DNA of 48,143 nt from Chryseosolibacter histidinae. Lineage in GTDB: Bacteria; Bacteroidota; Bacteroidia; Cytophagales; Cyclobacteriaceae. The notes under the pieces were generated by a model that made no database searches, was not told the DNA's origin, and worked only from the letters and a program-made list of their open reading frames with translations. The stretch covers positions 1 to 48,143 of the forward strand of contig NZ_JAHESF010000049.1 of NCBI RefSeq assembly GCF_018598225.1, read 5' to 3'. Position 1 is the stretch's first letter; every line of letters begins with the position of its first letter. This document shows positions 6,494-44,507 of this stretch, one piece after another. Made by a program: the position numbers and the translations under genes.

Positions 6494-6504
6494 GTGGTTG
6501 ATAT

Positions 6505-6654
6505 TAGGTATTGCCTGTCAGGCCTGGCGAAACTTTGTTGAATCACGGAGGCGTAAGCGCGGGTGATTGCAGCAGTTAGCGAGCACGGACAGGGGCGCCA
6601 GGCATGCGCATGGGAGTTTCAAAGATCCCGATACCCGATACCTAATGCCTAAAG
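6505..6654. repeat. Repeat-rich spacer with heptamer block next to the HD gene stop codon
   Basis: The right end (6627-6654) consists of four in-phase 7-bp units, two of them CCCGATA, then CCTAATG and CCTAAAG, ending one base before the HD gene stop (6656). The left side has a related TTAGGTA word. The middle has other inverted repeats: GCCTGGCG at 6522 with CGCCAGGC at 6596, and AATCAC at 6541 with GTGATT at 6562. The words resemble the array at 44452-44507 (TCAGGCA, TCAGGTA). Confidence 0.6.
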
Positions 6655-11385: not shown

Positions 11386-14022
11386 TCAAAGCCTGCTCAG
11401 GCTTTCTTCCAGCGCTTTGATCTTGGCTTCGGCATCCGCTTTTTTCTTGCGTTCACCTTCCACCACTTCCGGTTTTGCGCCGCTCACGAATTTTTCGTTT
11501 GAAAGCTTTTTATCTACAGATGCTAAAAATCCTTTCTGGTACTCGATGTCTTTCAAAATAGCCTCGCGCTCTTTGGCCACATCCACTTTTCCTTCGAAAG
11601 GAATGAAGAATTCAATCGACCTTACCAGGAACGGCGTGGCGTTCGTGGCAGGAGCCTGTGCTGCAAAGCTGATCTCCGTGAGGTTGGAAAGTTTTTGGAT
11701 CACCGGCCAGAACGACTTCAACGGAACCTGCTCGCCGTTCTTCACCACAAGCTTCAGCGCTTCTTTGGGCGAGATACCTTTATTGTTGCGTGTGTTCCTG
11801 ATCTCCGTCACCACCTCGAAGCTCAGCGATGCCTCGTCGAGGATCTTCTGATCGAAAGATCCGGATACAGGGTATGATGCTATCAGGATGCAATCTTTTT
11901 CTTTTCGTTGCTGCAGCTCGTGCCAGAGCTCTTCGGTAATAAAAGGCATGAAAGGATGCAGTGCTTTCATCAGCGTTTCAAAGAAGCCGATGGTTTTATC
12001 GTAAGTGATCTTGTCTATCGGTTTTTCGAACTCAGGCTTGACCATCTCCAGGTACCATGCGCAGAAGTCATCCCAGATCAGCTTATATAATGTATGCAGC
12101 GCATCAGAGATCCGGAATTTGCCGAAATGATCTTCCAGCTCTGTTAACGACTGCTGCAGCCTGGACTCGAACCATGTTATGGCCACCTTATTCACTTCAG
12201 GTTGGTTGCCGTCAACGGTCCAGCCCTTTACAAGCCTGAACGCATTCCAGATCTTGTTGGTGAAATTCCTTCCCTGCTCGATCAGTTTCTCGTCGTAGAG
12301 AAGGTCATTGCCGGCGGGTGCGCTGAAGAGCATACCTGCCCGCACCGCGTCGGCGCCGTGTTGCGAGATCAGGTCGAGCGGATCAGGTGAATTGCCCAGC
12401 GACTTCGACATCTTTCTGCCCAGCTTATCGCGAACGATCCCTGTGAGGTAAACATTTTTGAAGGGCTGTACCCCACGGTATTCATATCCGGCAATGATCA
12501 TCCGCGCCACCCAGAAGAAAAGGATCTCCGGAGCGGTAACCAGATCGTTGGTAGGATAGTAATAGTTCAGGTCCTTGTTGCCTTTGTTGTTCTTCGAATC
12601 CTTGAATATGGTGGTATCGAAGACAGCGATCGGCCACAGCCAGCTCGAGAACCAGGTATCCATCACGTCAGGGTCCTGCACGAGGTCTTCGGCTTTCAGA
12701 CTTGCGTGATCTGCTTTCAATTTCTGGTATGCCTCTTCTCTTGTTTTCGCTACCGCGAATTTTCCGTCGGGCGCGTACCATGCCGGGATCTGGTGGCCCC
12801 ACCAAAGCTGCCGGGAGATACACCAGTCGCGCACGTTAGACATCCAGTGATTGTATGTGTTCTTGAACTTTGCCGGGATCAGCTGTACGGTGTCATCCAT
12901 CACGGCCTTGTGCGCGGGCCGGGTGATGGCATCCATCTTCACCCACCACTGCAGTGAAAGGCGTGGCTCTATCACAGCGTCGGTGCGCTCGGAGAAACCT
13001 ACGTTGCTGTTGTAATCTTCTACCTTGGCCAGGTTCCCTTTTGCTTCGAGCTCTTTGGCGATCTTCTTGCGGGCGATGAAACGGTCTTCGCCGATGAAGA
13101 TCTTTGCCTTTTCATTGAGTGTGCCGTCGTCATTGAGGATGTCGATCACTTCGAGGTTGTGCTTTCTGCCCAGCTCGTAGTCGTTCATGTCGTGGGCAGG
13201 GGTCACCTTCAGGCAGCCTGTTCCGAAATCCATGGCCACGTAGTCATCTTCGATCACGGGGATCGCACGATCGATCAGCGGAATAAGAACTTTCTTTCCT
13301 TTGAGGTGTTTGTAACGTTCGTCTTTCGGGTTCACGCAGATGGCGGCGTCGGCCATGATGGTCTCCGGGCGTACGGTAGCGATGGTAATAAAATCGTTGC
13401 TGCCTTCGATCCGGTATTTGATGTAATACAGTTTGGACTGAACATCCCGGTGGATCACTTCGTCATCCGAAAGCGCGGTCTTGCCGGCAGGGTCCCAGTT
13501 CACCATGCGCAGCCCGCGGTAGATGTTGCCCTTGTTATAGAGATCGATGAAAACGTCGATCACGGCCTCATAATAATCGGGGTCCATGGTGAATTTCGTG
13601 CGGTCCCAGTCGCAGGAGGCGCCGAGCTTCTTGAGCTGCTCGAGGATAATTCCACCATACTTTTCTTTCCACTCCCAGGCGTATTTCAAAAACTCTTCGC
13701 GGGTGAGGTCAGATTTTTTGATACCGCGCTCGCGCAGCATGGCTACTACTTTTGCTTCGGTGGCGATGGAAGCGTGGTCGGTGCCGGGTACCCAGCAGGC
13801 TTCTTTGCCTTGCATACGGGCTCTGCGCACCAGTACATCCTGGATCGTATTGTTCAGCATGTGCCCCATGTGCAGCACCCCGGTTACGTTGGGTGGGGGT
13901 ATGACGATACAGAATGGCTCTTTTTGTGGATCAGGCTCTGAATGGAAGAAACGCTGGCTGAGCCAGTAACTGTACCATTTATCTTCTACAGCAGATGGGT
14001 TGTATTTAGTAGATAGTGACAT
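11386..14022 (-). CDS. valS: Valyl-tRNA synthetase
   Basis: An 878-residue class I aminoacyl-tRNA synthetase that charges tRNA-Val. The HIGH-like motif is HMGH at residues 51-54 within [14 protein letters not shown], and the second signature is KMSKS within [14 protein letters not shown]. The editing domain (CP1) lies between them, with [10 protein letters not shown]. An anticodon-binding helical domain follows, and the C-terminal coiled coil ([20 protein letters not shown]) ends the protein as in other ValRS. Length is normal. It is transcribed alone, converging with ald and diverging from the MFS gene. A possible -7 element is at 14067-14074. Confidence 0.98.
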
Positions 14023-14066
14023 GCTGAAATTTGCTTAAAAACCTTGCTAAAAGGGCAAGGGGAGGG

Positions 14067-14074
14067 CAAAAATA
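14067..14074 (-). promoter_or_regulatory. Possible -7 promoter element for valS
   Basis: The minus strand reads TATTTTTG, a perfect TAnnTTTG, 45 bases upstream of the valS ATG. No TTTG is found at the usual 19-21 base spacing, so support is partial. Confidence 0.4.
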
Positions 14075-14163
14075 AGGAAAATAGACACAATAGCCATTTT
14101 TTGAGCGCGTCACATCCAAGCGGCCATATTAGTTCGTAAATTCATTTCGAAACCAAAATTCTC

Positions 14164-15300
14164 ATGGAAGCAATTTCTGTCACCGAAACCGAAGTATCAG
14201 CCGTCCCCGATATCCGGTGGAAACAATTGTGGAGCCTCGCGGCCCTTTATGCATCGATTATCATTGGCTGGATCGCTTACGCGAACTATCAGCCCAAGCT
14301 GCTGGTGCAATTCCAGTTTACGGATTTTGCCTTTTTCCTCGCCGTCTCACAAGCCATCATCCTCGTGCTTACACCCCCGGTTGCCGGGTTAATGGGCGAT
14401 CGTTATCGTTTTGAAAAGGGGCATCGCATACCGGTGATCTCTTCCGGCATCAGCTTCGCTGCCATGGTGTTCATGGCGGTGGCCTTCACGCTGTTCACCA
14501 ATCCCGGTGAGATCTTTAAATGGATCCTGCCGGTGCTGATCGTCTTCTGGCTCATCTCCATGAGTATTTTTACAAGTCCCGCATTGTCTACCGTAGAACT
14601 TTTCACGCCGGTAGACCGTCTGCCGAAAGCCATGGCCCTGCTGACGATCGTGGCCAACCTCATCTATGCCATCGAACCTGTGATCGTGGATATTATCGAC
14701 TACCTCGGCGCTCCATTGACATTCATCGCAGGAGGTGTGGTGACGCTTGCGTCGGGTTATGCCATGAAGAAGAACTCGCTCGGGCTCTTCAAACAAACGG
14801 GTAATAAAGAGGGAAGCGCTGAACCCGGCCAGCATACCGCTGCGAAGTCGGCCTACGGATTTATTTTCTTCCTGGGGGTTATCCTCGGCATCTCTACCAC
14901 TGTGATGTTCAATCTTTTCCCCGATGCGCTGGCCCTGAAGTTTGCGGCGATCTCTAACAATGCCGATGGCAAGATCCTGCTCGTGGCAATGCTTGTGCTC
15001 TCCGCGCTGATCTCATGGCCCATCAGCAACTTCATCAACCGTTACAGCATGGAGCGGGTATTCTGGATCAGCGGTGCACTGATCGTGTTGAGTACTGCAA
15101 TTATATTCTTGGCACAGCCCGCATGGATCGTAGCGCTCATGGCCATTGTGTTCACCGTTACCTTTACGTCACTCTCCGTAAGCTCCCTTCCGCTGGCCCT
15201 CAGTCGCTCGGGATATTATGAGAAAGTATTCTGCGTAGGTGTGTTCTTCAGCGGCGCTGCGTTGCCGGAGGGGATATTTGAGTCGATACAAGCGTTCTGA
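14164..15300 (+). CDS. MFS-like membrane transporter
   Basis: A 378-residue polytopic inner-membrane protein with about 10-12 hydrophobic segments (for example around residues 25-45, 55-78, 90-112, 120-142, 150-200, 232-255, 272-290, 298-320, 322-345 and 350-370). A loop after the third segment region is charged (GDRYRFEKGHRIP), as in major facilitator transporters where GD-R sits between helices 2 and 3. A polar loop at about 205-230 separates two halves. The GDRYRFEKGHRIPVI stretch recalls the sugar/H+ symporter (GPH/SUT) branch, but the substrate is unknown. It is a single gene, divergent from valS. Its 3' end runs into the 15305-15465 repeat array within five bases of the stop. Confidence 0.75.
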   Translation: MEAISVTETEVSAVPDIRWKQLWSLAALYASIIIGWIAYANYQPKLLVQFQFTDFAFFLAVSQAIILVLTPPVAGLMGDRYRFEKGHRIPVISSGISFAAMVFMAVAFTLFTNPGEIFKWILPVLIVFWLISMSIFTSPALSTVELFTPVDRLPKAMALLTIVANLIYAIEPVIVDIIDYLGAPLTFIAGGVVTLASGYAMKKNSLGLFKQTGNKEGSAEPGQHTAAKSAYGFIFFLGVILGISTTVMFNLFPDALALKFAAISNNADGKILLVAMLVLSALISWPISNFINRYSMERVFWISGALIVLSTAIIFLAQPAWIVALMAIVFTVTFTSLSVSSLPLALSRSGYYEKVFCVGVFFSGAALPEGIFESIQAF

Positions 15301-15304
15301 GTAA

Positions 15305-15465
15305 AGTTGCCAGTTGCCGGTTTCCGGATGGCCGGTTGAGGAGGGCACGACCTTCACAACTGAGCGCTGAAAGAGTTTAAGCACCGAAAACGAACTGGTA
15401 ACTGGCAACTAACCGTACCTCGTAAATCGTACCTCGTACTTTTGTCAATTGCCCTTTGTCAACTG
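15305..15465. repeat. Heptamer array and hairpin filling a convergent gap
   Basis: From 15393 up to the stop codon at 15466 the sequence is a run of in-phase 7-bp units in three word families: AACTGGY (15393 and 15400), CGTACCT (15414, 15428) and TTGTCAA (15442, 15456, variant at 15463). The left arm at 15305-15323 is complementary to 15393-15410, counting two G-U pairs, giving a large hairpin. The left arm and the segment AGCACCGAAA (15380) are shared with the element at 27554-27745. The array's phase continues a few bases into the coding end. Confidence 0.85.
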
Positions 15466-16821
15466 TCAACTGGTTTTCTGCATCCTGATCCGCCACTCAA
15501 CCGGGTACATGTTGTTGAAACGGTTTCCCAGGCTGTTCACCCATCCCAGGGCCACGTCTTCGAACACGATGAGGTGATAACCCTTGTCGGTCTCCGGAAG
15601 TGTGAGCGGATCGCGCCTTAAATAACGGATCGCTTCGTCATGGCCGACAGAAAGTGTCTTGAAGTTTTCTCTGCGAAGATCGGTGCTCATGGCCAGCGCG
15701 TGTTCCGGTATCAGCTTATCATGTTTTACAGTAGCCGTAGCGATGCCAGCATTTACCACCTTGAGGTGCTGGTGAAGCATGCCCAGGTGCAGCGTATGTG
15801 CCTCCGGGAAAAAGTAGAGGAGGTCTTTCCACTGGAAAAAACTGACGCGCTCGGGATGATGGATCCATGACTGCAGCGTGTTAACGATCTTCGCCGGTGC
15901 CGGGGTGAGATCGCGGTTTGCTTTGAGGCGCAACGATGGGCTTACCTGTTTTTTGCGGATCACCGACATGAAGAAACCTTCACCCTCCACACGGTGCGGG
16001 AAGAACCGGTAGCCGATCACATCATTTTTTTTTGTTTCCTGGATGTTCCAGCCATCGATGCTGACTTTCAGGAATTCAACGTCGTGTTGTTCCCGGAGCC
16101 ATAACAAATTATCTTCATTCTCCTGTTCGTTGTACGTGCAGGTGCAGTAGATGAGAATACCATCTTCTTTCAGCGCTGGCCATGCATCTGCAACGATCCG
16201 TTTCTGGCGGCTTGCACAGAGCGCTACATGCTGCGGCGACCATTCTTCCGCAGCTTCGTGATCTTTTCTGAACAATCCTTCACCGGAGCAGGGAGCATCG
16301 ATCACCATCACATCGAAAAAACCGGGAAGCGATTGAAAGTGATCCGGGTCGCTGTTGGTAACCACTGAGTTTTGATAACCCCACTTTTGCAGGTTCTCTG
16401 CCAGCACCGAGGCGCGTGACCTGATCACCTCGTTAGACACCAGCAAGCTCTGGTCTGAAAGCAAGCTCAAAATATGAGTCGACTTGCCACCGGGTGCGGC
16501 ACAGAGGTCGAGAACATTCAACGGAGCATGGAGGTCGGTCAGCTGCCGGAAAGCTTGTTCGATGAACATGGAGCTTGCTTCCTGCACGTAGTAGGCACCT
16601 CCATGAAGGCGCGGATCGAGCGTGAACGAAGGCCTGGTTTCCAGGTATCTTCCGAAGGCGGACCAGGGTACCGGTTTACCTGGCAGCGGCAGTGCATTTT
16701 TTGCGGGGTTCTGCCGGATGCTCACCGGGGCCGCGCCATTCAGGCTTTCCATAAAGAGCCCGAAATCATTACCCAACCGCTTCCTGGTCTCCTCCTGAAA
16801 TGCTTCCGGAAATCTGCTCAT
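15466..16821 (-). CDS. RNA m5C methyltransferase, RsmB/NOP (RsmF-like) family
   Basis: A 451-residue SAM-dependent RNA cytosine-5 methyltransferase, probably acting on rRNA. The SAM-binding motif is LDLCAAPGGKST (about 104-115). Motif IV DAPCSGEG (175-182) and motif VI CTCTY (226-230) carry the two catalytic cysteines. A C-terminal domain of about 150 residues contains FFPHRVEGEGFF, as in RsmF/YebU. I chose the ATG at 16821 (MSRFPEAF). The frame stays open further upstream to 17034, but that would run into the divergent fahA gene and adds non-conserved sequence. The exact rRNA target cannot be told from sequence. Confidence 0.92.
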   Translation of the reverse strand: MSRFPEAFQEETRKRLGNDFGLFMESLNGAAPVSIRQNPAKNALPLPGKPVPWSAFGRYLETRPSFTLDPRLHGGAYYVQEASSMFIEQAFRQLTDLHAPLNVLDLCAAPGGKSTHILSLLSDQSLLVSNEVIRSRASVLAENLQKWGYQNSVVTNSDPDHFQSLPGFFDVMVIDAPCSGEGLFRKDHEAAEEWSPQHVALCASRQKRIVADAWPALKEDGILIYCTCTYNEQENEDNLLWLREQHDVEFLKVSIDGWNIQETKKNDVIGYRFFPHRVEGEGFFMSVIRKKQVSPSLRLKANRDLTPAPAKIVNTLQSWIHHPERVSFFQWKDLLYFFPEAHTLHLGMLHQHLKVVNAGIATATVKHDKLIPEHALAMSTDLRRENFKTLSVGHDEAIRYLRRDPLTLPETDKGYHLIVFEDVALGWVNSLGNRFNNMYPVEWRIRMQKTS

Positions 16822-16897
16822 AAGCGCGAAGTTAAACTTTCCGCCCGGCTTGCTGACTTGAATCGAAAAATATAGGTTTACTCCCCAAACTTCCCGT

Positions 16898-18175
16898 ATG
16901 GTGACGGCAAACGATCCAAAGTTAAAAAGCTGGGTAGAGGTTCCTAAGGAATCCGATTTCCCTATCCAGAATCTTCCCTTCGGAATATTCAAGACCAAGT
17001 ACCTGACACCGGTGGCAGGTGTGGCCATTGGCAACTATGTGCTCGACCTGGTTTACCTTCACGAGAACGGGTATCTTGATGGCCTGGGCTTGCCCCCAGG
17101 TATTTTCAACCAGAAATTCCTGAACGATTTTTTTACCCTCGGCAGGATGAAGATCCGGGAAGTGAGAGAAAGGATCTCTGAGCTGCTGCGCCATGATAAC
17201 GACGAGCTTCAGGGTGATGCTGCGGGCCGCGAAATTGCGCTGGTGCCCATGGACGAAGTGCAGATGCTGATGCCGGTGAAGATCAGCAACTATTCGGATT
17301 TTTACAGCAGCGAAGAGCACGCCACCAATGTTGGCTCCATGTTCCGCGATCCGAAGAACGCCTTGTTACCTAACTGGAAACACCTGCCTGTTGCCTACCA
17401 CGGCAGGGCTTCTTCCATTGTTGTTTCAGGAACAGCCATTCATCGTCCGAAAGGACAGATCAAATATCCCGATCAGGAGTTTCCCGCTTTTGCGCCTACC
17501 CGGAAGCTAGACTTTGAGCTTGAGGTAGGATTCATCACCTGTGGCGAAACAAGGCTGGGCCAGTCCATCCACACCGCGCAGGCTGAAGATTATATCGCAG
17601 GCTTTGTGTTGTTCAACGATTGGTCTGCACGCGATATTCAGCAATGGGAGTACGTGCCACTGGGACCTTTCCTGTCAAAGAATTTCGGGTCTACCATTTC
17701 TCCGTGGATCGTAACACTCGATGCGATGGAACCTTTCCGCGCACAAGGCCCTGAGCAACTTCCCCATGTGCTTCCGTATCTTGCGTTTGAAGGCAAGAAG
17801 AATTTTGACATTGTGCTGGAGGTGCTTCTTCAATCGGAAAAAACGGAGCAGACAACGGTGTGTCGCTCGAACTTCAAATACATGTACTGGAACGTGAGTC
17901 AGCAGTTGGCGCACCATACGGTGAACGGATGCAACATCCAGGTGTGTGATCTGTATGCTTCAGGCACCATCAGTGGTCCATCTCCGGGCTCTTATGGCTC
18001 GTTGCTGGAGCTCACCTGGAATGGTCAGAAGCCATTGACCCTGCCTGATGGAAGTGAACGTACCTTCATTGAAGACGGCGATACCATCACGATGCATGGC
18101 TACGCCAAAAAAGATGGCGTGCGCATCGGCTTCGGTGAATGCAAAGGAAAGATCCTGCCTCCCATTCAAGGATGA
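16898..18175 (+). CDS. fahA: Fumarylacetoacetase
   Basis: A 425-residue enzyme that splits fumarylacetoacetate into fumarate and acetoacetate, the last step of tyrosine/homogentisate breakdown. An N-terminal SH3-like domain (to about 120) precedes the FAH fold. Metal-site and family segments include SDFYSSEEHATNVG, LDFELEVGF, GFVLFNDWSARDIQQWE and SKNFGSTISPW. Length matches bacterial and eukaryotic FAH. It diverges from the RsmF-like gene with a 76-bp gap and is followed 45 bp later by a flavin reductase gene. The stop codon lies inside a 33-bp palindrome (18168-18200). Other genes of the pathway (HPPD, HmgA) are not in the window. Confidence 0.95.
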   Translation: MVTANDPKLKSWVEVPKESDFPIQNLPFGIFKTKYLTPVAGVAIGNYVLDLVYLHENGYLDGLGLPPGIFNQKFLNDFFTLGRMKIREVRERISELLRHDNDELQGDAAGREIALVPMDEVQMLMPVKISNYSDFYSSEEHATNVGSMFRDPKNALLPNWKHLPVAYHGRASSIVVSGTAIHRPKGQIKYPDQEFPAFAPTRKLDFELEVGFITCGETRLGQSIHTAQAEDYIAGFVLFNDWSARDIQQWEYVPLGPFLSKNFGSTISPWIVTLDAMEPFRAQGPEQLPHVLPYLAFEGKKNFDIVLEVLLQSEKTEQTTVCRSNFKYMYWNVSQQLAHHTVNGCNIQVCDLYASGTISGPSPGSYGSLLELTWNGQKPLTLPDGSERTFIEDGDTITMHGYAKKDGVRIGFGECKGKILPPIQG

Positions 18176-18200
18176 CATCCTTTAAAAGGATGTCATCCTT
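18168..18200. repeat. 33-bp perfect palindrome containing the fahA stop codon
   Basis: Arms of 16 bp at 18168-18183 and 18185-18200 are exact reverse complements around a single A. The core word is GGATGACATCC. The TGA stop of fahA (18173-18175) lies in the left arm. It could be an RNA hairpin that limits read-through to the next gene. Confidence 0.85.
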
Positions 18201-18220
18201 ACAATATAAATTTCGTTTAG

Positions 18221-19093
18221 ATGCTTACGCTGAACCCCAAAGAGATACCCGTTGCAAAAATGCACAGCTATTTGCTGGGTGCTGTTACACCACGCCCGAT
18301 AGCTTTTGCGAGCACGGTGGATAAAGCCGGGAACGTGAACCTGAGTCCATTCAGTTTCTTCAATTGCTTTGGCGCCAATCCTCCGATCCTGATCTTTTCT
18401 CCTGCCAGAAGAGGACGTGATAACACCACCAAGCACACGTATGAGAATCTCAGGGAAGTGCCCGAGGTGGTGATCAATGTGGTAACCTATAACATGGTGC
18501 AACAGACCTCGCTGGCCAGCACGGAATATCCGAAGGGTGTGAATGAGTTTATCAAGGCAGGTTTTACTGCTGCACCTTCCGTTGTGGTAACACCGCCGAG
18601 GGTATCAGAGTCGCCCATTTCTATGGAGTGCAAGGTGCTGCAGATCATTCAAACGGGAGACCAGGGTGCGGCAGGCAACCTCGTGATCTGTGAGGTGTTG
18701 CGCATGCACATCAATGAGCAAGTACTCGATGCAGAGGGAAAGATCGACCCCTGGAAGCTCGATGCCGTTGCACGTCTTGGCGCTGACTACTACTGCAGGG
18801 TGCAGGGCGATTCGATCTTTAAAGTACCCAAGCCCCTGGACAAGATGGGAATAGGCATTGACAGCCTACCTGAAAATATCCGAAGAAGTAAAATACTCAC
18901 CGGCAACGACCTGGGCCTGCTCGGCAATGTTGAACGACTGCCCGACCAGGCTTCTATCGATGAATTCAGCAACCGCTACGAAGTAAAGGCCGCGCTTCAG
19001 CATGGCGAAGTGGCACTGCATCAGCTCGCACATCAGTATCTGAAAGACGAGAATGTGAACGATGCATGGAAGGTGTTGCTTGCGGGCCGGTAG
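18221..19093 (+). CDS. Flavin reductase family protein
   Basis: A 290-residue protein whose first ~200 residues match the flavin reductase-like FMN-binding split-barrel. The characteristic N-terminus is GAVTPRPIAFASTVD, followed by NLSPFSFFNCFGANPPILIFSP. The C-terminal 80 residues (from about DSLPENIRRSKIL) are an extension seen in a subset of Bacteroidota members. It probably binds FMN and acts as an NAD(P)H:flavin oxidoreductase; the partner enzyme is unknown. It follows fahA closely on the same strand, suggesting a link to aromatic amino acid breakdown, though a stable palindrome separates the two. It converges on pdhB. Confidence 0.87.
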   Translation: MLTLNPKEIPVAKMHSYLLGAVTPRPIAFASTVDKAGNVNLSPFSFFNCFGANPPILIFSPARRGRDNTTKHTYENLREVPEVVINVVTYNMVQQTSLASTEYPKGVNEFIKAGFTAAPSVVVTPPRVSESPISMECKVLQIIQTGDQGAAGNLVICEVLRMHINEQVLDAEGKIDPWKLDAVARLGADYYCRVQGDSIFKVPKPLDKMGIGIDSLPENIRRSKILTGNDLGLLGNVERLPDQASIDEFSNRYEVKAALQHGEVALHQLAHQYLKDENVNDAWKVLLAGR

Positions 19094-19167
19094 GGTCTCC
19101 GTTCGCAGATGGGTTGCGGAAGAACTTCCGCTTCAGGATTCTGACTACGAATCGGTTTTATGAAAAT

Positions 19168-19239
19168 GAGGCCGGAAGAAACTTCCGCCTCAGCGGGAAA
19201 AAGAAACGGGCAGAATCTCTTCCACCCGTTTATATTTTC
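19168..19239 (+). terminator. Hairpins after the flavin reductase gene, likely terminator
   Basis: A first hairpin at 19168-19191 pairs GAGGC and GGAAG with CTTCC and GCCTC. A second pairs AAACGGG (19204-19210) with CCCGTTT (19225-19231) and is followed by TATATTTT. The second has the usual layout of an intrinsic terminator, although its loop is long. A related GGAAGAACTTCC motif lies earlier, at 19118-19129. Confidence 0.55.
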
Positions 19240-19240
19240 A

Positions 19241-19318
19241 TTCTAAAATTCTAACTACTCAATTCTAGTTTTCCTCTGCATTTCTCCTGGCTCCTTACTC
19301 CTGGCTTCTGACTCCTTT
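19241..19318. repeat. Heptamer array flush with the pdhB stop codon
   Basis: From 19284 to 19318 there are five in-phase 7-bp units (CTCCTGG at 19284 and 19298, with variants at 19291, 19305 and 19312), ending exactly at the pdhB stop (19319-19321). A second block of AT-rich 7-bp words (TTCTAAA at 19241, ATTCTAG at 19262) runs from 19241 to 19282, with one slipped base at 19283. Confidence 0.8.
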
Positions 19319-20299
<981 letters not shown>

Positions 20300-20317
20300 A
20301 GCTTTTAATAAAGTCCG

Positions 20318-20348
20318 TAAAAATAGTATGTGAGGTGGGATTGGCAAA
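20318..20348 (-). promoter_or_regulatory. Promoter for pdhB
   Basis: On the minus strand a TTTG (20348-20345) is followed after exactly 19 bases by TATTTTTA (20325-20318), one base from the TAnnTTTG consensus. It lies between the upstream gene's terminator and the pdhB ATG at 20299. Confidence 0.6.
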
Positions 20349-20375
20349 ACCCAAGGCAGGAAAGGTGCTAAATAA

Positions 20376-20408
20376 AAAACCCCGTCCGGGTGAACCGGAC
20401 GGGGTTTT
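20376..20408 (-). terminator. Strong intrinsic terminator after the OmpA/TPR lipoprotein gene
   Basis: A 14-bp perfect stem (20376-20389 with 20395-20408, core CCCCGTCCGG) closes a five-base loop. Read on the minus strand it is followed by TTTTTTATTTA. It separates the lipoprotein transcript from pdhB. Confidence 0.92.
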
Positions 20409-20429
20409 CTAAAAATCCAATGAAATCTC

Positions 20430-22205
20430 TTATTTCAGCGCGTTTCTGAAAGGTTCAGTGGCTGAAAACTTGGCAAACTCCAGGTCAGTGAGGGCCGCCT
20501 GCTTCAGTTCAGGATCAGCTTTAACGGCACTGGTCAGGTTGCTCACCACACCTTCGGCGTTGCCAAGGCGGGCAGAAGCAATAGCAGCGCCGTAGAAGGC
20601 TACAGCCAGGTTGCTGTTTTTGCGCGTTGCTTCAGTGAAAGAAGTAAGTGCGTTCTGATAGTCTTTGTTCAGGATCTGAGCAAGACCTTTGTTGAACAGG
20701 TTGTCTGCGTTGTCAGCAGCAGCTGATTCAGAACGAACAGCGTCAGCATATTTTGCAGTGATGATCTCGGCTGCACCTTTCACACCGTTAACACCGGCAG
20801 CGTTGTCGCCAGTGAGTCCGGAGCTCAAAGCTTTGCTGGCAGCGGCATAAGCGGCGCGAGCGTTGCCTTTGATCATGTGAACAGAAGCGAGGTTAGCGTT
20901 CACTTCAGGAGCGTCTTGCAGCTTGGCAGCGATCTCGAGCTGGGCCTGAGCCTTGTCAGCCAAAGCAGCGGCGTTTGCTGAGTTTTCGATAGCCTGTGCA
21001 ATGTATACAGCGCCCAGGTTGTTATGAGCAGTCCAGTTAGTGCCTTTTTTAGTAGCAGCTTCGTAGATAGCGGCTTTCTCTTCCAGTGAAGGAGTCAGTG
21101 TACCAGCGTACATCAGCTCATCGAAAGTAAGGGTATCGGCGCTGGTCTGGCCTTGTGTGATCTGTTTAGCGAGTACAGAGATCTCTGCGTCGGTCTTCTT
21201 GTCTTTGATCGTGAGGATCTCGGTCTTGGCAGTTCTCAACTTAGGATATACGTCTTTGAATACTTTCTTGTAAGTAGAAAGTCTCTTCATTTGTCTTTCC
21301 TGATCTTCGAAAGTACCACCAGCATTGATGATGTTCAGGTATTCAGTTTTTTGCTCTGAAGTGATGCCTTCATAAGAAGACAAAACATTCTTGAACTCAT
21401 TCCAGTCCTGGATAACAGGCTTCAGGATAAACTTGATAGAATCAGCCATGCCTTTGTAGTCATACTTCTTCATTTGCTGACGATAGTATTTTTCGATGGC
21501 AGCGGCACGATCCGGAGACAGTCTGCTGTTGATCCGCTCAGCACCTTCAGGTGAGTGGGTACCGGTGATGGTCACAGTGCGGGTAGCGTTTTTAGAAGCG
21601 ATGAAGGCGTCGAGTTCTTTGCCTTTGGCGCTTTTGATCTCAGAGGTCCTGAGTACAGATCTTCCCTGTTCGAAGATGAAGTCAGGGATGATCACAGGCT
21701 CGAGTTCTTCCTGATTGTTGTATGAGTGTCCTGTGAAAGCGGCATAGTAAACGGGCTTCACAAGCTTTGAGGTTGTGATCACACCGGTTGCCACCTGCAT
21801 GCGTTCAGTGTTCTTTGACTTGGTGCCTTTAGAGGCAACGCCCTGAACTTCGAGTACGCCCGATTTCATGGCCGGAGCGTAAGCAAAGGAGAAATTCTTC
21901 GTTACTTTAGGCTGTTCTGTACCAGCGTTCGGATAATCTTCAGCCTTGAAAGGAATAGGATCCAGCGCTAGTTCCTGCTCGCCGTATTTGTAGAAAGTGT
22001 TCACGGTGTAAACAGTACCTTTCTTCAGCATTTTAACAGGAAGATTAGCAGCCATGTCAAAAGCAACGGTGTCCTTGTGCACTTCCAGTGGATTAGGAGT
22101 TACAGTCAGTTGCTGCTCTTTTGACATCTTCACCATCTTGGGCAGAGTACAGCCCGCCATGGTCAGTGCACCGGTGATCAGAAATGAGTAAACGATTTTT
22201 CTCAT
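20430..22205 (-). CDS. Outer-membrane lipoprotein with OmpA-like and TPR domains
   Basis: A 591-residue lipoprotein. The signal peptide ends in the lipobox MAGC (Cys about 19). A beta-rich region of about 150 residues follows. An OmpA-like peptidoglycan-binding segment is visible near 175-250, with [11 protein letters not shown] and [26 protein letters not shown]-type spacing of the conserved N, LS and RA. The last ~200 residues are alanine-rich TPR-like helices ([41 protein letters not shown]). It should anchor the outer membrane to peptidoglycan from the periplasmic side. It is not PorE by layout: no beta-propeller is seen. It is a single gene with a strong terminator. Confidence 0.8.
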
Positions 22206-22322
22206 TGGATTTTGAGTTATGTTGTTTATAATCAGGGTTTAAAACTAAACTTATGTGTATTTTTTTGCAATTATACTCAAAAAAATAAGAATCCAGCCAT
22301 TAGATCACATTGTGGCAGGCCT

Positions 22323-22330
22323 TATATTTG
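22323..22330 (+). promoter_or_regulatory. Likely -7 element for the PspC-domain gene
   Basis: The plus strand reads TATATTTG, a perfect TAnnTTTG, 66 bases upstream of the ATG at 22396. No matching -33 TTTG at normal spacing was found. Confidence 0.45.
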
Positions 22331-22395
22331 TAAGCCGGATTTTTGGTCGATAAATCAACTTTTAAACAAGTTGAAAGTTAAATAATGACAGGAAT

Positions 22396-22623
22396 ATGGG
22401 TGAATTAGCAAATAAAATCCAGCATTTCTTTGAAGGTTATGCCTTTGGAGTATGTACCCGGCTGGGTGAAAAGCTGGGAATGGCAACGTCCAGCATCAGA
22501 TTGTTCTTCATATACGCCTCGTTCATCACCTTTGGCTCACCGGTAATTATTTACCTGGCGCTGGCCTTTGTGATGAATATCCGCAAGCATTTAAGAAAGC
22601 GTAGTCCCATCTGGGATTATTGA
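22396..22623 (+). CDS. PspC-domain membrane protein
   Basis: A 75-residue protein matching the PspC domain: FGVCTRLGEKLGMATSSIRLFFIYASF followed by a glycine turn and the second hydrophobic stretch PVIIYLALAFVMNI. (Residues quoted in two parts.) PspC proteins sit in the inner membrane and sense or respond to envelope stress in other bacteria. Here the domain stands alone with a basic tail (RKHLRKRSPIWDY). No pspA or pspB is nearby. The last 33 bp overlap the convergent glycosyltransferase gene, so both 3' ends share sequence; no terminator is seen there. Confidence 0.8.
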   Translation: MGELANKIQHFFEGYAFGVCTRLGEKLGMATSSIRLFFIYASFITFGSPVIIYLALAFVMNIRKHLRKRSPIWDY

Positions 22624-23625
22624 CCTGAAGTGTTTCCTGCTGCGGAAGTAGTAATCCAAGATAACCAGCCCTGTGTACACATTCTTCCTGGAATAGGAGG
22701 GATGCGCCCTGTGGAGATCCGCTCTCTTTCTCCTGTGCCTGCCGATATCCCTGAGAAAATGATAGTGTGCCCTGAACACACTTTTCGCGTTTGCGGGCTC
22801 TCCCTTGAGCAGGAACATCAGGGCCGCCACCCAATCGAGGCCTACACGCAGCGGTAATTTATAGATCAGCTCACCTGCATCCAGGTGCTTGAAGATCAGG
22901 ATGAGGCCGTTCCTGAAGTTGAGATAGGTTTTCATCGGGCTCTTGTAACCGAGGGTTCCGGCGCCCAGGTGATACACAACGCTCCGCCCGGTGTAGCAGA
23001 CCTTCTGAGGGATCCTGGCGATCTTCCAGCAGAGGTCTATCTCCTCCATATGTGCAAAGAGTTCCTCATCCAGGCCGTTGAATTGATGATATATTTGCGC
23101 CCTGATCATGAAGCATGCGCCGGTAGACCAGAATATCTCCCGTTCATCATTATACTGGCCGTTGTCTTCCTCCACTTTGTCGAAAATTCTTCCCCTGCAG
23201 AAAGGATAGCCCAACGCGTCGATGTAACCTCCGGCGGCACCGGCGTATTCGAACTTGTTCTTGTCAGCGTGCGAAAGGATCTTGGGTTGTACGGCAGCCA
23301 CCGCGCTATCACGGTCCATGATCTCGAGCATCGGCGCAAGCCAGCCATGGGTAACCTCAACGTCTGAGTTGAGCAGCAGGTAATACTGCGCTTCGATCTG
23401 CCGCAGGGCGCGGTTATAACCTCCGCAGAAGCCGTAATTTTGATCGAGCCGGATGAGACGCACCTGCGGGAACTCCTGCTGCAGCACCTCCAGAGAGCGG
23501 TCTGTCGATCCATTGTCGGCCACCACGATCTCGGCCTCCGCTGAATAACGGATCACCGAAGGAAGGAACTGGCGGAGCAGTTTTTCACCGTTGAAATTTA
23601 AAATGACAACCGAGAGCTTCGTCAT
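22591..23625 (-). CDS. Family 2 glycosyltransferase
   Basis: A 344-residue GT-A fold transferase. The N-terminus LSVVILNFNGEKLL and the VVADNGSTD motif bind the nucleotide sugar. The metal-binding DxD-like site is LLLNSDVEV (about residues 84-92), and FWSTGACFMIR with a following HMEEIDLCWK matches the rhamnosyltransferase-like WcaA/GT2 subgroup. It probably adds a sugar in cell-surface glycan or O-antigen synthesis; donor and acceptor are unknown. The 5' end overlaps ybaB by 4 bp (ATGA), so the two are co-translated. The 3' end overlaps the convergent PspC-like gene by 33 bp. Confidence 0.88.
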   Translation of the reverse strand: MTKLSVVILNFNGEKLLRQFLPSVIRYSAEAEIVVADNGSTDRSLEVLQQEFPQVRLIRLDQNYGFCGGYNRALRQIEAQYYLLLNSDVEVTHGWLAPMLEIMDRDSAVAAVQPKILSHADKNKFEYAGAAGGYIDALGYPFCRGRIFDKVEEDNGQYNDEREIFWSTGACFMIRAQIYHQFNGLDEELFAHMEEIDLCWKIARIPQKVCYTGRSVVYHLGAGTLGYKSPMKTYLNFRNGLILIFKHLDAGELIYKLPLRVGLDWVAALMFLLKGEPANAKSVFRAHYHFLRDIGRHRRKRADLHRAHPSYSRKNVYTGLVILDYYFRSRKHFRSIIPDGTTLS

Positions 23626-23957
23626 CCCATCATGCCCGTAAGATCCAGGCCCGGAATGTTGGGGATAAGGCCTTCTGTGCTTTTCCTCAGTTCTTCCTTC
23701 GCTTTGATGTCTGCTTCTTCCGCAGCCTTGTTCACGGCGGCGATCACCAGATCCTGAACCACACCCGAATCCTCGGGCTTAAGCAGCGTCGGATCGATCT
23801 CGAGCGATACCAGTTGGCGTTTGCCGTTGACGGTAGCCTTCACCATGCCGCCACCGGACTCGCCCGTTGCCCGCACATGCACAAGATTATCCTGGGCCTC
23901 TTTCAGACGGGATTGAACCTCTTTCATCTTTCCCATCATTTTCATCATATCGAACAT
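23622..23957 (-). CDS. YbaB/EbfC family nucleoid-associated protein
   Basis: A 111-residue member of the YbaB/EbfC family. The N-terminal methionine-rich helix (MFDMMKMMGKMKEVQSRLKEA) and the VKATVNGKRQLVSLEIDPTLL strand region are typical. These small dimers bind DNA with little sequence preference and are often near dnaX or recR. Here the partner is a glycosyltransferase gene, overlapping by 4 bp. A possible promoter (24091-24098) lies in the loop of the upstream repeat hairpin. Confidence 0.92.
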   Translation of the reverse strand: MFDMMKMMGKMKEVQSRLKEAQDNLVHVRATGESGGGMVKATVNGKRQLVSLEIDPTLLKPEDSGVVQDLVIAAVNKAAEEADIKAKEELRKSTEGLIPNIPGLDLTGMMG

Positions 23958-24011
23958 ACGCGTAGTAGTTTAAAAGTTTATCAAGCTGCAATGTACATGC
24001 CCGTTAGTGAA

Positions 24012-24149
24012 AAGTCCACAGTCGACGGTCCACAGTCCACAGACGTGCAGTGTGAAATCACCGCGCTGTGCTTCGTAGCCTGGGCGTAGACAAAAATACG
24101 GATATAACGCTGAACTGCTGTGGACTGTCGACTGTGGACCGTGGACTAT
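24012..24149. repeat. Heptamer inverted-repeat array after the T9SS cargo gene
   Basis: The left arm (24013-24054) and right arm (24115-24149) are each built of in-phase 7-bp units, such as AGTCCAC (24013 and 24034) and GGACTGT (24122). The arms pair in register over about five units to form a long imperfect stem with a ~65-base loop. The array ends two bases before the stop codon of the convergently read minus-strand gene (24152). Confidence 0.85.
24091..24098 (-). promoter_or_regulatory. Possible -7 element for ybaB and the glycosyltransferase
   Basis: The minus strand reads TATTTTTG, a perfect TAnnTTTG, in the loop of the heptamer hairpin and 134 bases upstream of the ybaB ATG. No -33 TTTG at proper spacing is visible. 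Confidence 0.35.
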
Positions 24150-24151
24150 TT

Positions 24152-26053
24152 TCATTTTTTTCGGAGCAGCAGCACGGATCCGGATTTCTTGAATGACCGG
24201 CCTGCCTGATCGGTGATCTGTGCCACGAAGGCATAGGTTCCTTCGGGCATGGGGTTACCCTTGAAGGTGCCGTCCCACCCCTGCTCGATCTCGGTAGTGG
24301 TGTACATCAGCTCTCCCCAGCGGTTGAAGATATTCATTTCAAAGGTCACGATGTATTGGCCGTACACATTGAAGATGTCGTTCAGCGCATCACCGTTCGG
24401 TGTGAAGCTGGTGGGATGAAACAGATTCGGGTTCTTGATGATGACCACACGGTTGGAGATCGCCTGGGGCAATCCGGGCTCCGCGGCATTGACCTTCACC
24501 ACATACACAAATAACTGGTTACTGAGATCCTGGCCATCGTCTATAAAGCTCAGGGTGTTGCCCACCGCAAAGGTCTGCAGCAACTGTCCCTGTTCGTTGT
24601 ATTTTTCAACCACGTAGCTGGCAACGCCACCGGTCCATCCCGTGTAGGCGCTCCACGATAAACTGATGGCATTGTCACGCTGCAGGGTCCCGCTGAGGCG
24701 CACAGGACAGGCTTCTGCCGTGAGCGGACTTTGATTGCCGCATACGTCCTTGTACGATATCTTGTAACAGGTTTCGTTTTCTGTGCGGTAGGTCTCGTCA
24801 CGTGCCTGGAGGCCGGTAGTGGTTGTCAGCAGATCGTAGGTGTTGCCCGTTGATCTGAAAATAGAATAGGCTTCGGGCGCCGCCCCTGATGAATGCTGCC
24901 ACTGCAGGTCTACTGCATCCTGGCCTACAACAGCGGTGATATTTTCTACCGGCGCCGGTATGTCTGTGGAGATGGCAGTACCACATTTCTGCAAGGAGAT
25001 GCTCCTGCTTCCGTTAGGATAATTGGTAGTGAGCTGATAGCAGTATTCTGTTCCGCACACAATGTCGGTATCCGAATACGGAGAACTGGATGCAGTCCAT
25101 GTGGTCGCGTTGCCACCTTGTACGGTACGGCTGATCCTGAAATTGGATACACCCGCTGAGCTCGTGCTCCAGAGCGAGTTGTTGGCGTTGTTCACCACGC
25201 TGAGGTCGAAGTTGGCGCTGCAGATGATGTTGGAGTATTGTGGAGGAGCTGCATTGTTACACGCATCCACCGTACCCAGCCTGAAGCAGTAATAGTTGTC
25301 GTCAGGCTTCAGGTTTGTCAGGGTCTCCGTGGCGAGATTATAGCTGGTCTTGAAGGCCTGAAACGACACGGCATTGTTGCCGGCGATCTCGAGCCTGTAA
25401 GGAATGTTAGGTGCAGCGTTGTAGTTCAACTGTATGGAGGCATTGTCCACAACCTGCAGCTGTGAAACCGTGGGTGCCGAAAGGGAGGGCACTGCTGTAA
25501 CATTCTGCGGTACTGTCGGACAGTTGTCGCGAGCGTCGATATTCCTGCCTCTCACGGTTACGGTATGCGGCCCCGCAGCGTATAAGTGCTGATCTTTGAC
25601 GAGGTTCCCTTTCGGTTTTACCACATCCGGACTCCCATCGTTGTAATTGATCACATATTGATCATAATTTGAGTCTTTGATGTTGACGGAGACCTGGTTG
25701 CCGCTGCAGGTATAGACTTCAAACTGCGGCCTAAGTGTATCCGCAGTAACCACGATCACGATATCATCAAACTGGGTTCCGCCCTGGAACAGCACCTGCA
25801 GTGTATAGGTGCCTGGCTTTGTATACGTATGCTGAAAAACATTGCCTTGCCCTCTGTCTCCGGGAGGGCCATCGCCAAAGATCATGTTGCAGTCGCCCGA
25901 TGCGCACTGTGCTGAGGTAAGGTTGACCACGAGATTATTGCATCCTTTTTTCTGGTCTACCTGGAAATTACCAAGACGGCTTGTGTACTGAGCCTGTGCG
26001 CAAATAGATATGCACATGACCATCCATACGATATAACAAGCCCTAGATTTCAT
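24152..26053 (-). CDS. Secreted PKD/FN3-like protein with T9SS type B sorting domain
   Basis: A 633-residue exported protein. The signal peptide is MKSRACYIVWMVMCISICAQA, shown here with its cut near residue 20. PKD-like strands follow (FQHTYTKPGTYTLQVLF), then several fibronectin-III-like modules with paired cysteines. The C-terminus (about 550-633) is a gliding-motility-associated C-terminal domain: LFHPTSFTPNGDALND, FNRWGELMYTTTE, GWDGTFKGNPMPEGTY. That domain is the type B signal for the type IX secretion system. The ATG at 26053 is chosen because the signal peptide begins there; an ATG three codons earlier is also possible. The start overlaps the end of hutH by 11 bp. Likely an adhesin or surface protein. 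Confidence 0.88.
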   Translation of the reverse strand: MKSRACYIVWMVMCISICAQAQYTSRLGNFQVDQKKGCNNLVVNLTSAQCASGDCNMIFGDGPPGDRGQGNVFQHTYTKPGTYTLQVLFQGGTQFDDIVIVVTADTLRPQFEVYTCSGNQVSVNIKDSNYDQYVINYNDGSPDVVKPKGNLVKDQHLYAAGPHTVTVRGRNIDARDNCPTVPQNVTAVPSLSAPTVSQLQVVDNASIQLNYNAAPNIPYRLEIAGNNAVSFQAFKTSYNLATETLTNLKPDDNYYCFRLGTVDACNNAAPPQYSNIICSANFDLSVVNNANNSLWSTSSAGVSNFRISRTVQGGNATTWTASSSPYSDTDIVCGTEYCYQLTTNYPNGSRSISLQKCGTAISTDIPAPVENITAVVGQDAVDLQWQHSSGAAPEAYSIFRSTGNTYDLLTTTTGLQARDETYRTENETCYKISYKDVCGNQSPLTAEACPVRLSGTLQRDNAISLSWSAYTGWTGGVASYVVEKYNEQGQLLQTFAVGNTLSFIDDGQDLSNQLFVYVVKVNAAEPGLPQAISNRVVIIKNPNLFHPTSFTPNGDALNDIFNVYGQYIVTFEMNIFNRWGELMYTTTEIEQGWDGTFKGNPMPEGTYAFVAQITDQAGRSFKKSGSVLLLRKK

Positions 26054-27545: not shown

Positions 27546-27553
27546 GTTACAAG

Positions 27554-27745
27554 TGCCGGTTACCAGTTGCCAGGTTCTAGTTTCAAGTTAGAAGTTTAAA
27601 GTTTAAAGTTTGAGTCCGGTTGCCAGTTGCCGGTTTCCGGGTAGCCGGTTGGTGAGGTGTCCCTTGCGCTTAACATAGGTTGAAAGTTCATATTCATTAG
27701 CACCGAAACAAACCGGTAACAGGCAACTGGTAACCGGCAACCTTT
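27554..27745. repeat. Heptamer array between hisS and hutH, second copy of the 15.3-kb element
   Basis: The right arm (27711-27745) is five in-phase 7-bp units (AACCGGT at 27711, AACTGGT at 27725), ending exactly at the hisS stop (27746). An 18-bp exact inverted repeat pairs 27554-27571 with 27722-27739. The middle has a run of units of the form TNNNAGT (27561-27616). The segment from 27618 and AGCACCGAAA (27700) match the element at 15305-15410. Confidence 0.87.
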
Positions 27746-29122: not shown

Positions 29123-29250
29123 AAAAAAATCGCGGCAAGTTAATGCTTATGGGCTGATGTGAAAACGGGCGGGAGATCAATATGTACAAGTGTTACGAAA
29201 AGTGATCGAAATAGCGTGTTCGCGGGGAATTTGTTGTAAATGAAGCGTGT

Positions 29251-29517
29251 ATGCCCTTGTTTTACATAGGCCTCAAAAATAACGACTCTCTCAAGTTGAC
29301 AGACGAGGATAAAGAACGTGTTAAGTTTAATACTGAGATCATCAAGACTCTCATTATCTTATTTTTGGCAACAGGCGGAGGCACCATTTCGCTGATACTT
29401 GAGGGGTTGCCCCGTGGGCGGCATGTGGTTTTCGCGGCATGTGGAATAATACTGGCGCTTATCTCTGGCGTTATGACTTATGTGATTTATAAAAACACCA
29501 AAAAGCTCATTAAATGA
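29251..29517 (+). CDS. Small two-helix membrane protein
   Basis: An 88-residue protein with a charged N-terminus (LTDEDKERVKFNTEI), two hydrophobic helices at about 32-52 (TLIILFLATGGGTISLIL) and 58-80 (VVFAACGIILALISGVMTYVIY), and a basic tail (KNTKKLIK). I do not recognise a named family. The TGA stop overlaps the ATG of the next tiny gene (ATGA), so the two should be translated together. Base composition is more AT-rich than the flanking housekeeping genes, hinting at accessory origin. Such small membrane pairs occur next to toxin, phage-defence or stress genes elsewhere, but no such partner is present here. Confidence 0.65.
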   Translation: MPLFYIGLKNNDSLKLTDEDKERVKFNTEIIKTLIILFLATGGGTISLILEGLPRGRHVVFAACGIILALISGVMTYVIYKNTKKLIK

Positions 29518-29753: not shown

Positions 29754-29824
29754 GCCTTAAGGGTGTCAGGCGAAACTGAAACCATCAATTCCTAAATGAT
29801 GAACGACAATTTTCAGCCTAACAG

Positions 29825-29855: not shown

Positions 29856-29878
29856 CGCTCCTTTTAACAGAAACGGCC

Positions 29879-30043: not shown

Positions 30044-30068
30044 TTCTGCCAGATTTTAATAAATATTG

Positions 30069-31327: not shown

Positions 31328-31418
31328 AGGTACGACCCCGATAGCTATCGGGAACGAGGTACGAAGTACGTAACCCAGTCCTGCATTTCGTACCTCGTAC
31401 CTCTAACCTCGTACTTTC
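31328..31418. repeat. Heptamer array after xth, GTACGA family
   Basis: Thirteen consecutive 7-bp blocks from AGGTACG (31328) to 31418. They include GAGGTAC (31356), GAAGTAC (31363), TACCTCG (31391) and AACCTCG (31405). CGAGGTACGAA (31355-31365) pairs with TTCGTACCTCG (31387-31397), an 11-bp perfect stem. A 16-bp palindrome, CCCGATAGCTATCGGG, is embedded at 31337-31352. Confidence 0.85.
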
Positions 31419-32219: not shown

Positions 32220-32312
32220 AGGTACGAGATACGAAGTACGGAAATGCAGGTCACTGCTATATATTCAAAGTACGGTATTTACCTCGTACTTCGTACCTCT
32301 CACCTCGTACCT
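32220..32312. repeat. Heptamer hairpin filling the gap to murA
   Basis: All bases from 32220 to 32310 divide into 7-bp units, including AGGTACG (32220), AAGTACG (32234), TTCGTAC (32290) and CTCGTAC (32283 and 32304). A nested stem pairs AGGTACGAG (32220-32228) with CTCGTACCT (32304-32312) and an 11-bp arm (32230-32240) with 32285-32295. It lies four bases after one stop codon and one base before the other, so it may end both convergent transcripts. Confidence 0.87.
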
Positions 32313-44450: not shown

Positions 44451-44451
44451 A

Positions 44452-44507
44452 ATCAGGCATCAGGTATTCGTGCACCCTGCATTTTCCAATGCCTGATGTC
44501 CGATGCC
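44452..44507. repeat. Eight-unit heptamer array filling a convergent gap
   Basis: Exactly eight 7-bp units (56 bp) span from two bases after the DUF3109 gene stop to the base before the next gene's stop (44508-44510). ATCAGGC (44452) and ATCAGGT (44459) on the left mirror GATGCC-containing units (44487-44507) on the right, giving a hairpin. The words match the family beside the HD gene (6627-6654). Confidence 0.85.

Follow-up and report, generated by a model that had tools for sequence, protein, structure and literature searches.

Hairpins with heptad-repeat arms at gene ends in the genome of Chryseosolibacter histidinae

Genes and Repeats of the 15.3-kb Locus

The stretch of DNA analysed here (hereafter, the window) comprises 48,143 bp and corresponds to contig C66 of the 8.04-Mb genome of Chryseosolibacter histidinae. 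Its clearest array of tandem 7-bp units (heptads) lies in a convergent gap at 15301..15465, which extends from stop to stop between two genes: (i) an MFS transporter-like gene (14164..15300, plus strand; Pfam PF07690, 1.1e-09); and (ii) a gene for an RsmF-like 16S rRNA methyltransferase (15466..16821, minus strand; Pfam PF01189, PF17125 and PF13636). This gap is filled by a hairpin whose arms are made of heptads and by two further heptad arrays. The 5' arm, of the AGTTGCC family, is located at 15305..15322 (plus strand), 4 bp past the stop codon of the plus-strand gene; the 3' arm, which reads GGCAACT, occupies 15393..15410 (plus strand) and is, at the same time, the start of an array of twelve units. 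According to an inverted-repeat search, the arms are 89% complementary with 70 nt between them, and in the predicted RNA they form a 19-pair stem. The predicted fold of the RNA of 15301-15465 has an energy of -57.7 kcal/mol (z -2.39).

The 3' arm is followed by a CGTACCT-family array (CGTACCTCGTAAATCGTACCTCGTAC; 15414..15441, plus strand), whose variant pattern recurs at other loci of the genome, and by a GTCAACT-family array (15442..15476, plus strand), which enters the last codons of the minus-strand gene. A preliminary description of this DNA had read 15393-15476 as twelve 7-bp units meeting the stop codon at 15466, and this parse was confirmed: bases seven positions apart match at 45 of 77 positions, whereas 20,000 shuffles average 19.6 matches and do not exceed 36, and the last 11 bases (15466-15476) are inside the minus-strand open reading frame. 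The three words of the twelve-unit run have no letter position in common and, in consequence, the phase between them is undefined. In a relative, G002, an array written in a different word (AGGTTCA/AGGTTTA) is present in the orthologous gap, which is 106 bp long.

Heptad Arrays as Arms of Hairpins

A lag of seven bases gives the strongest periodic signal among lags 2-30 in the window. The survey of arrays was carried out on 1,648,143 bp (1.65 Mb) of the genome, window included, with gene borders taken from our own codon-usage caller, not from an annotation, so that gap lengths at start codons are approximate. In this sample, 403 segments reach a score of at least 12 at lag 7 (384 of them intergenic), versus 2-27 segments at the other lags from 4 to 13 and 36 at lag 15; the harmonics at lags 14 and 21 yield 242 and 115 segments, respectively. 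Extrapolated from this rate, the whole genome would contain some 2,000 arrays.

Most of these arrays are arms of large imperfect hairpins, a fact that had been overlooked in the preliminary description. Among 189 pairs of neighbouring arrays (less than 220 bp apart), 106 are inverted, 3 direct, 11 both and 69 neither; among 4,987 random pairs taken from different gaps, the corresponding numbers are 264, 239, 69 and 4,415. Where both neighbours could be labelled, in the first 448 kb, 20 pairs face inward, one faces the same way and none faces outward (16 more were not fully labelled). The 897 gap regions of the 1.65 Mb (gaps of at least 30 bp were counted) contain 137 inverted repeats with heptads in both arms, and 272 of 425 arrays lie in the arm of an inverted repeat.

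In general terms, an arm is a short run of degenerate heptads with the sense consensus RGTNNNN, and the whole element measures roughly 80-200 bp, with a loop mostly of 10-150 nt. The word families include RGTTRCC, RGTCCAY, RGTTTAA, RGGTACG and GGTAATC; the median loop is 83 nt for RGTTRCC, 76.5 nt for RGTCCAY and 20-30 nt for the other families. As RNA, the hairpins have a median z of -5.66, and all 40 randomly sampled elements fall below -2. Just inside the arms, an inward-facing motif resembling GTGCGGTGT is often found across word families (62 pairs; one shuffled control). Loop centres are, for the most part, unrelated between copies, but loop ends share this motif and the loops of the GGTACGA family resemble each other; weak loop similarity was seen in three of the five word families. 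At C34:120370-124463, three AGTTGCC hairpins within about 4 kb have loops that are 76-83% identical, perhaps as a result of local gene duplication. A blast of whole elements returned 582 rows of full-length similarity (duplicates included), with 60-69% identity where inspected, and was given no weight.

The same words, with the same internal variants, occur at unlinked loci. With one mismatch allowed, the 14-mer AGTTGCCRGTTGCC has 248+251 matches in the genome versus 4+5 for a reversed control, and 0-9 matches per strand in 59 other searched genomes of the family. Local slippage followed by compensatory change in the partner arm was considered and rejected: within word families, the complementarity of an arm to its own partner totals 1784.5 against a permuted mean of 1794.6 (sd 36.0), and the version restricted to the outer 21 bp gives 1498.0 against 1490.6 (sd 30.3). 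Unpermuted, the own-arm value (17.93) is below the cross value (19.13; n=99). By family, AGTCCAC and GGTACGA lean to their own partner and three families lean the opposite way. Since the arms do not co-vary locus by locus, the words are maintained genome-wide rather than hairpin by hairpin.

Position and Polarity Relative to Genes

Arrays are found in 78 of 168 convergent gaps, 151 of 542 tandem gaps and 33 of 187 divergent gaps. Among gaps of 30-200 bp, the proportions are 54/115 for convergent and 2/80 for divergent gaps (p 3e-13). In the 171 tandem gaps used for a placement null, the array block lies no more than 8 bp from the upstream stop in 86 cases versus 33.5 expected; enrichment at the downstream start is absent (22 versus 33.5 expected), unlike in the TAACTGA repeats discussed below. 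Under the same kind of null, 66 of 82 convergent gaps have an array at a stop (41.7 expected), and when a convergent gap holds two or more arrays (n=53), their outer ends lie within 10 bp of both stops in 27 cases, of one stop in 20 and of none in 6. Hence, the anchoring at stop codons that had been proposed for the window holds in the 1.65 Mb examined.

The arrays also have a polarity. Among 200 arrays abutting a stop codon, the RGT/AGG words run in the sense of the gene in 165 cases, in the reverse sense in 6 and unresolved in 29, with labels that were defined after the arrays had been seen.

The preliminary description had further stated that divergent gaps lack arrays. Those of the window are indeed array-free, but the larger sample includes the 33 array-bearing divergent gaps mentioned above, of which 31 are longer than 200 bp. 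As stated there too, the gaps of the window with a terminator-like hairpin (1710, 20376, 30069 and 42281) are array-free; nevertheless, the complementary placement of terminators and arrays is not exclusive, since, of 75 convergent gaps of 50-400 bp that bear arrays, 14 contain a terminator-like hairpin as well.

Gain and Loss Between Relatives

Orthologous gaps were compared in eight relatives, represented by parts of their genomes, and in more depth in the relative G002, sampled at 480 kb and later at 880 kb (164 conserved gene pairs came from the 880 kb). Two available genomes belong to the same genus; the hisS protein of the window (27749-29122) has its top named match in Chryseolinea serpens (81% identity). 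The gap between hisS and the adjacent aromatic amino acid lyase gene illustrates the pattern: it measures 200 bp and holds an element here, and it is array-free in the eight relatives, with lengths of 3, 3, 18, 24, 26, 41, 80 and 102 bp. Likewise, the convergent genes at 32.2 kb, separated by an element in the window, overlap by 4 bp in G002.

Across the eight relatives, the array is lacking in 38 of 49 comparisons and the median gap is 194 bp here versus 79 bp there, although these 49 rows are not independent, as they represent 25 distinct gaps. When each distinct gap is counted once, gaps with an array (n=25) are longer here by a median of 84.5 bp and array-free gaps (n=60) by 4.5 bp (p 2e-4). 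In the 880 kb of G002, the array is absent in 26 of 37 gaps; these 26 are longer here by a median of 106.5 bp (tenth percentile -55), and the mirror situation is seen in 10 gaps with arrays in G002 only, where the median excess there is 115 bp. Taken together, the elements are lineage-specific gains, and units come and go between relatives.

Both species have an array in 11 gaps, and the words are different in all 11; G002, the only other species that was sampled in depth, uses words of its own. The rate of arrays in G002 is 11/37 where there is an array here and 9/80 otherwise, a modest elevation over chance (p 0.018); the earlier, smaller sample of G002 had given 9/22 versus 4/49 (p 0.002), a contrast that weakened with 400 kb more, and the weaker figure is used. 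Thus, one site can bear a hairpin in two species written in different words.

Other Bacteroidota

Lag 7 is also the top lag in the 880 kb of G002 (127 segments; 77 at the lag-14 harmonic and 28 at lag 8) and in 80 named Bacteroidota loci (84 segments, followed by lag 8 with 43). Lag 8 is raised in both sets, and 8-bp arrays are possible in some relatives. By gap type, arrays occur in 9/31 convergent, 32/161 tandem and 4/48 divergent gaps in 480 kb of G002, and in 9/138, 38/542 and 4/158, respectively, in the 80 named loci. In these loci, neighbouring arrays are inverted in 6 cases, direct in 3, both in 1 and neither in 7, and polarity stands at 14 to 1 with 13 unresolved. In any case, the case for other Bacteroidota is weaker than that for this genome.

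Other Elements of the Window

The preliminary description had listed arrays at several other stop codons. Arrays or arms are indeed present near 6654, 19318, 24149, 27745, 31328 (interrupted) and 32220/32312; at 44452/44507, on the contrary, neither an array (score threshold 9) nor an inverted repeat (score threshold 11) was detected, and a short inverted pair of two units each, seen by eye between two stops (44451..44507), stays below both thresholds.

The AGTCCAC/GTGGACT hairpin at 24010..24150 has 50-nt arms that are 78% complementary (RNA z -4.58), and its right arm ends 1 bp from the stop of a minus-strand CHU_C gene. Between hisS and the lyase gene, at 27554..27742, a nested AGTTGCC/GGCAACT hairpin is accompanied by an AGTTTAA array (27579-27611), and the RNA z is -5.09. 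Two AGGTACG/CGTACCT hairpins follow: one at 31328..31414, 3 bp past a stop, and another at 32220..32312, between the convergent stop codons. The left arm of the former is interrupted by the palindrome CCCGATAGCTATCGGG (31337-31352), which lies within the heptads as though inserted; a near copy of this palindrome, CCCGATAGCTACCGGG, is located inside an element at C45:26104-26292. At 6494..6652, an array (6627-6652) abuts the stop at 6656 and has a partner, TTAGGTATTGCC, recognized by eye only, as no inverted repeat of score 11 was found in that interval. Finally, a solo CTCCTGGCTCCTGA array (19284..19316, plus strand) ends 2 bp from the stop of a minus-strand gene.

No Rfam family and no tRNA was matched in the window, and terminator predictions in 14000-33700 are at shuffle level (19 versus 19.9). 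Three other kinds of small repeats were observed: (i) a hairpin repeat of CGCAGAT-like words (TTCCCGCAGATCGCGCTGAT...ATCTGCGGGAA), which is not 7-periodic, at 43761-43833 of the window, C45:195522-195599 and C11:115400-115601; (ii) a family of REP-like (repetitive extragenic palindrome) short hairpins, AGTCGTCRGACCACTGC, with 18-19 nt loops, at C45:41798-41852, C45:65212-65263 and C45:112330-112382; and (iii) small similar hairpins around GATGACATCCTT / AAGGATGTCATC at 18168-18200 of the window and C45:8846-8886.

Relation to Known Repeats

The cited papers were covered in part, and what is said of them here and below refers to those parts. The closest described case is that of the GGGAATC / GGGGA(C/T)T heptads of Xanthomonas and Nostoc (Rehm et al., 2015), which share the unit length of the present ones and, in Xanthomonas, also the inverted pairs and the preference for stop codons. 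In Xanthomonas, 70 and 75 convergent inverted pairs were counted in two genomes (few in Nostoc), heptads prefer stop codons on the sense strand and are scarce between divergent open reading frames, and their G-quadruplex (G4) formation was studied (PMC4692102). There, however, each genus has one G-rich, G4-capable word; here, several non-G4 words coexist in one genome, arrays are paired in inverted orientation more often than in any other way, and orthologous gaps of different species hold different units.

The nearest mobile parallel is that of the REPINs of the REP-RAYT system, which are likewise extragenic hairpins formed by inverted short repeats with a variable spacer, in hundreds of copies; nevertheless, a REPIN ends in conserved 16-mers and is linked to a RAYT (PMC3116915), unlike the elements described here, with their tandem heptads of several words and no clear RAYT link. 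GTAG- and CGTC-tagged REPs are also palindromic repeats near genes, the CGTC type is present in Bacteroidetes, and the ends of GTAG REPs often provide the stop codon of the flanking open reading frame, but they are single palindromes of 20-40 bp without heptad arms (PMC3733652).

Direct repeats of TAACTGA are known from Beggiatoaceae, cyanobacteria and five Bacteroidetes (MacGregor, 2015; PMC4679880). Like the present arrays, they are intergenic, and in Flexibacter litoralis one set lies directly past a stop codon; other heptamer direct repeats are reported for the intergenic DNA of Gramella and A. sublithincola. Unlike the present arrays, most of them precede start codons and run as direct repeats, a single inverted repeat being reported for the main genome studied (PMC4679880). 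The claim that nothing similar had been described in Bacteroidota was, hence, too strong as regards heptamer arrays; hairpin arms at 3' ends in Bacteroidota are not described in the covered parts of that paper (PMC4679880). Our own literature search, which barely covered subscription journals, found no description of heptad-arm hairpins in Bacteroidota.

Other parallels are partial. In Geobacter metallireducens, families of elements with four or five tandem heptads each are scattered over the genome, and some classes occur mostly in pairs, but they are described as putative regulator sites, within as well as between genes, and 3' hairpins are unmentioned in the covered parts of the paper (PMC2700814). 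The P6b stem of the Nostoc tRNA-Leu intron also consists of complementary 7-nt repeats, with one word class replacing another, although it sits inside one intron and is not a dispersed 3'-end element (PMC4476775). A 2025 survey reports a high tandem-repeat density in Bacteroidota, coding DNA included (PMC12699852).

Foldback transposons of animals have long inverted arms of tandem repeats, as the present elements do, but they are eukaryotic.

Origin and Function

The anatomy and abundance of the hairpins, their polarity, their anchoring at stop codons and their gain or loss as whole units between relatives are observed directly. The reading we prefer, with a probability of about 0.55, is that they constitute a high-copy family of non-coding hairpins with heptad arms, similar to miniature inverted-repeat transposable elements (MITEs) or REPINs, that is tolerated or used at the 3' ends of genes. 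The units would spread through the genome as short insertions, by a copying process that leaves no target duplication and is not clearly tied to Y1 transposases or to an integron integrase. Insertions in promoters would be lost and those at gene ends would be kept, since at that position they are nearly harmless and the hairpin can assume a 3'-end function, i.e., blocking 3' exonucleases and helping to stop transcription from both sides. In support of such a family, the elements share with REPINs an inverted-repeat doublet with a less conserved spacer, and with MITEs terminal inverted repeats and presence or absence at orthologous sites. Regarding the preliminary proposal that the arrays were copied or extended by slippage, it holds for one half at most: the two arms of a locus complement each other no better than they complement arms of other loci, and what was gained are units about 100 bp long.

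Several observations weigh against this MITE- or REPIN-like reading. First, not every array conforms to the anatomy: 34 of 171 heptad-bearing inverted repeats have heptads in one arm only, and 153 of 425 arrays are outside any inverted repeat. Second, no target-site duplication was found: among the 137 elements, neither flank words of k 3-9 nor the longest word common to both flanks show a clear excess. At E<0.01, 53 of the 66 loops are without a further match in the 1.65 Mb, and conservation of the kind seen in a young MITE is not apparent. As for candidate enzymes, there are four Y1_Tnp genes here and 2-5 in seven relatives; five of these relatives were scanned for arrays, four are array-poor, and Y1 counts do not track array density in the five. 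Around three of the four Y1 loci of this genome, among them the one with the best score, heptads are absent from the nearest 1.5 kb. A search for an integron integrase (as a test of an attC origin; TIGR02249) gave 7 matches, none above the cut-off. Third, when all 37 gaps compared with G002 are considered, the medians are 173 bp here and 141 bp there, so that a clear excess is confined to the gaps in which G002 has no array, and one in ten of these latter gaps is shorter here by at least 55 bp. Fourth, in 480 kb of G002 the pattern is far weaker than here, with neighbours inverted in 8 cases, direct in 5, both in 5 and neither in 13, and a polarity of 8 to 3 (22 unresolved). As for the 80 named loci, 23 of their segments scoring at least 12 are in coding DNA. 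Finally, the 3'-end use faces two difficulties: TTTT within 10 nt outward of the inverted repeats, measured from the ends of the repeats and not of the arrays, is present in 16 of 274 cases versus 7.1% of 3,000 random intergenic words, and canonical terminators do not differ between array and array-free gaps of 150-400 bp (8/32 versus 2/20 and 14/95 versus 27/121).

Dedicated punctuation of 3' ends, in which the hairpins are selected as bidirectional terminators or protectors of mRNA 3' ends and the sequence drifts with the fold being kept, is a possible explanation to which we give less credence than to the MITE- or REPIN-like family. It agrees with the stop-to-stop placement, the avoidance of short divergent gaps and the higher rate of arrays in G002 at array-bearing gaps, always in different words. 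It also agrees with the scarcity of canonical terminators in short array gaps, namely 6/43 versus 16/42 in array-free convergent gaps (p 0.014) and 0/36 versus 17/154 in tandem gaps (p 0.046), with uncorrected p values from a test of four comparisons. This scarcity suggests a 3'-end use, which is also part of the preferred reading, and a terminator role is plausible. In Xanthomonas, moreover, transcripts start or stop at G4-forming heptads more than at control repeats (PMC4692102). Nevertheless, the hairpins just past the stop, stable as they are predicted to be, lack the U-tract that directly follows the stem of an intrinsic terminator (T is slightly raised in the first four outward bases, 0.34-0.42 versus 0.28); the commonest loops, those of 80-100 nt, exceed what is usual in such terminators; the arms do not co-vary at locus level; and, in two relatives, the gap that holds the hisS-lyase element here measures 3 bp. 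The same placement is expected from purifying selection on random insertions, so it could arise from the loss of harmful insertions alone. For the terminator or 3'-end role put forward in the preliminary description, the evidence is mixed: the stable hairpins, the position between stops and the paucity of terminators in short gaps speak in favour, and the missing TTTT enrichment, the lack of a difference in longer gaps and the hisS-lyase element against.

A more far-reaching idea, which we regard as tentative and rather unlikely, is that of a repeat class widespread in Bacteroidota in which both arms of the hairpins are rewritten together, genome-wide, in changing heptads, and the place, the polarity (RGT in the gene sense) and the fold stay.

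It is improbable that the arrays result from neutral slippage, during replication, of 7-nt units in DNA free of constraint, and the inverted pairs from strand switching. The arrays are intergenic, and a survey cited in PMC4679880 found that, in most genomes, no long simple repeats were more abundant than heptanucleotides; but slippage does not account for the same words and variants at unlinked loci (499 matches of one 14-mer versus 9 of its reversed control), and it is already disfavoured by the stop anchoring, the polarity and the whole-unit gains. A REPIN family moved by a RAYT (Y1 transposase) is very doubtful: the inverted pairs, the poorly conserved spacer, the extragenic position and the high copy number are those of REPINs (PMC3116915), and one Y1 locus (L220) has a heptad hairpin about 460 bp away, but the other three have none nearby and similar numbers of Y1 genes are found in array-poor relatives. 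Lastly, G4-forming heptads, despite sharing with those of Xanthomonas and Nostoc the unit length and with Xanthomonas also the inverted pairs and the stop-codon preference (PMC4692102), are ruled out here by three-tetrad rules, as only 1 of 495 arrays has two or more GGG/CCC runs and none has four.

Significance

If the MITE- or REPIN-like reading is right, a large share of gene ends (78 of 168 sampled convergent gaps) bears a hairpin written in species-specific words that were not found described. This would bear on how transcripts end, on the content of intergenic DNA and on the way in which a family of short repeats alters its sequence throughout a genome. The joint rewriting of both arms, if true, would call for a machinery able to copy and write heptads, for instance through templated addition at the ends of DNA, and we know of no description of such a machinery.
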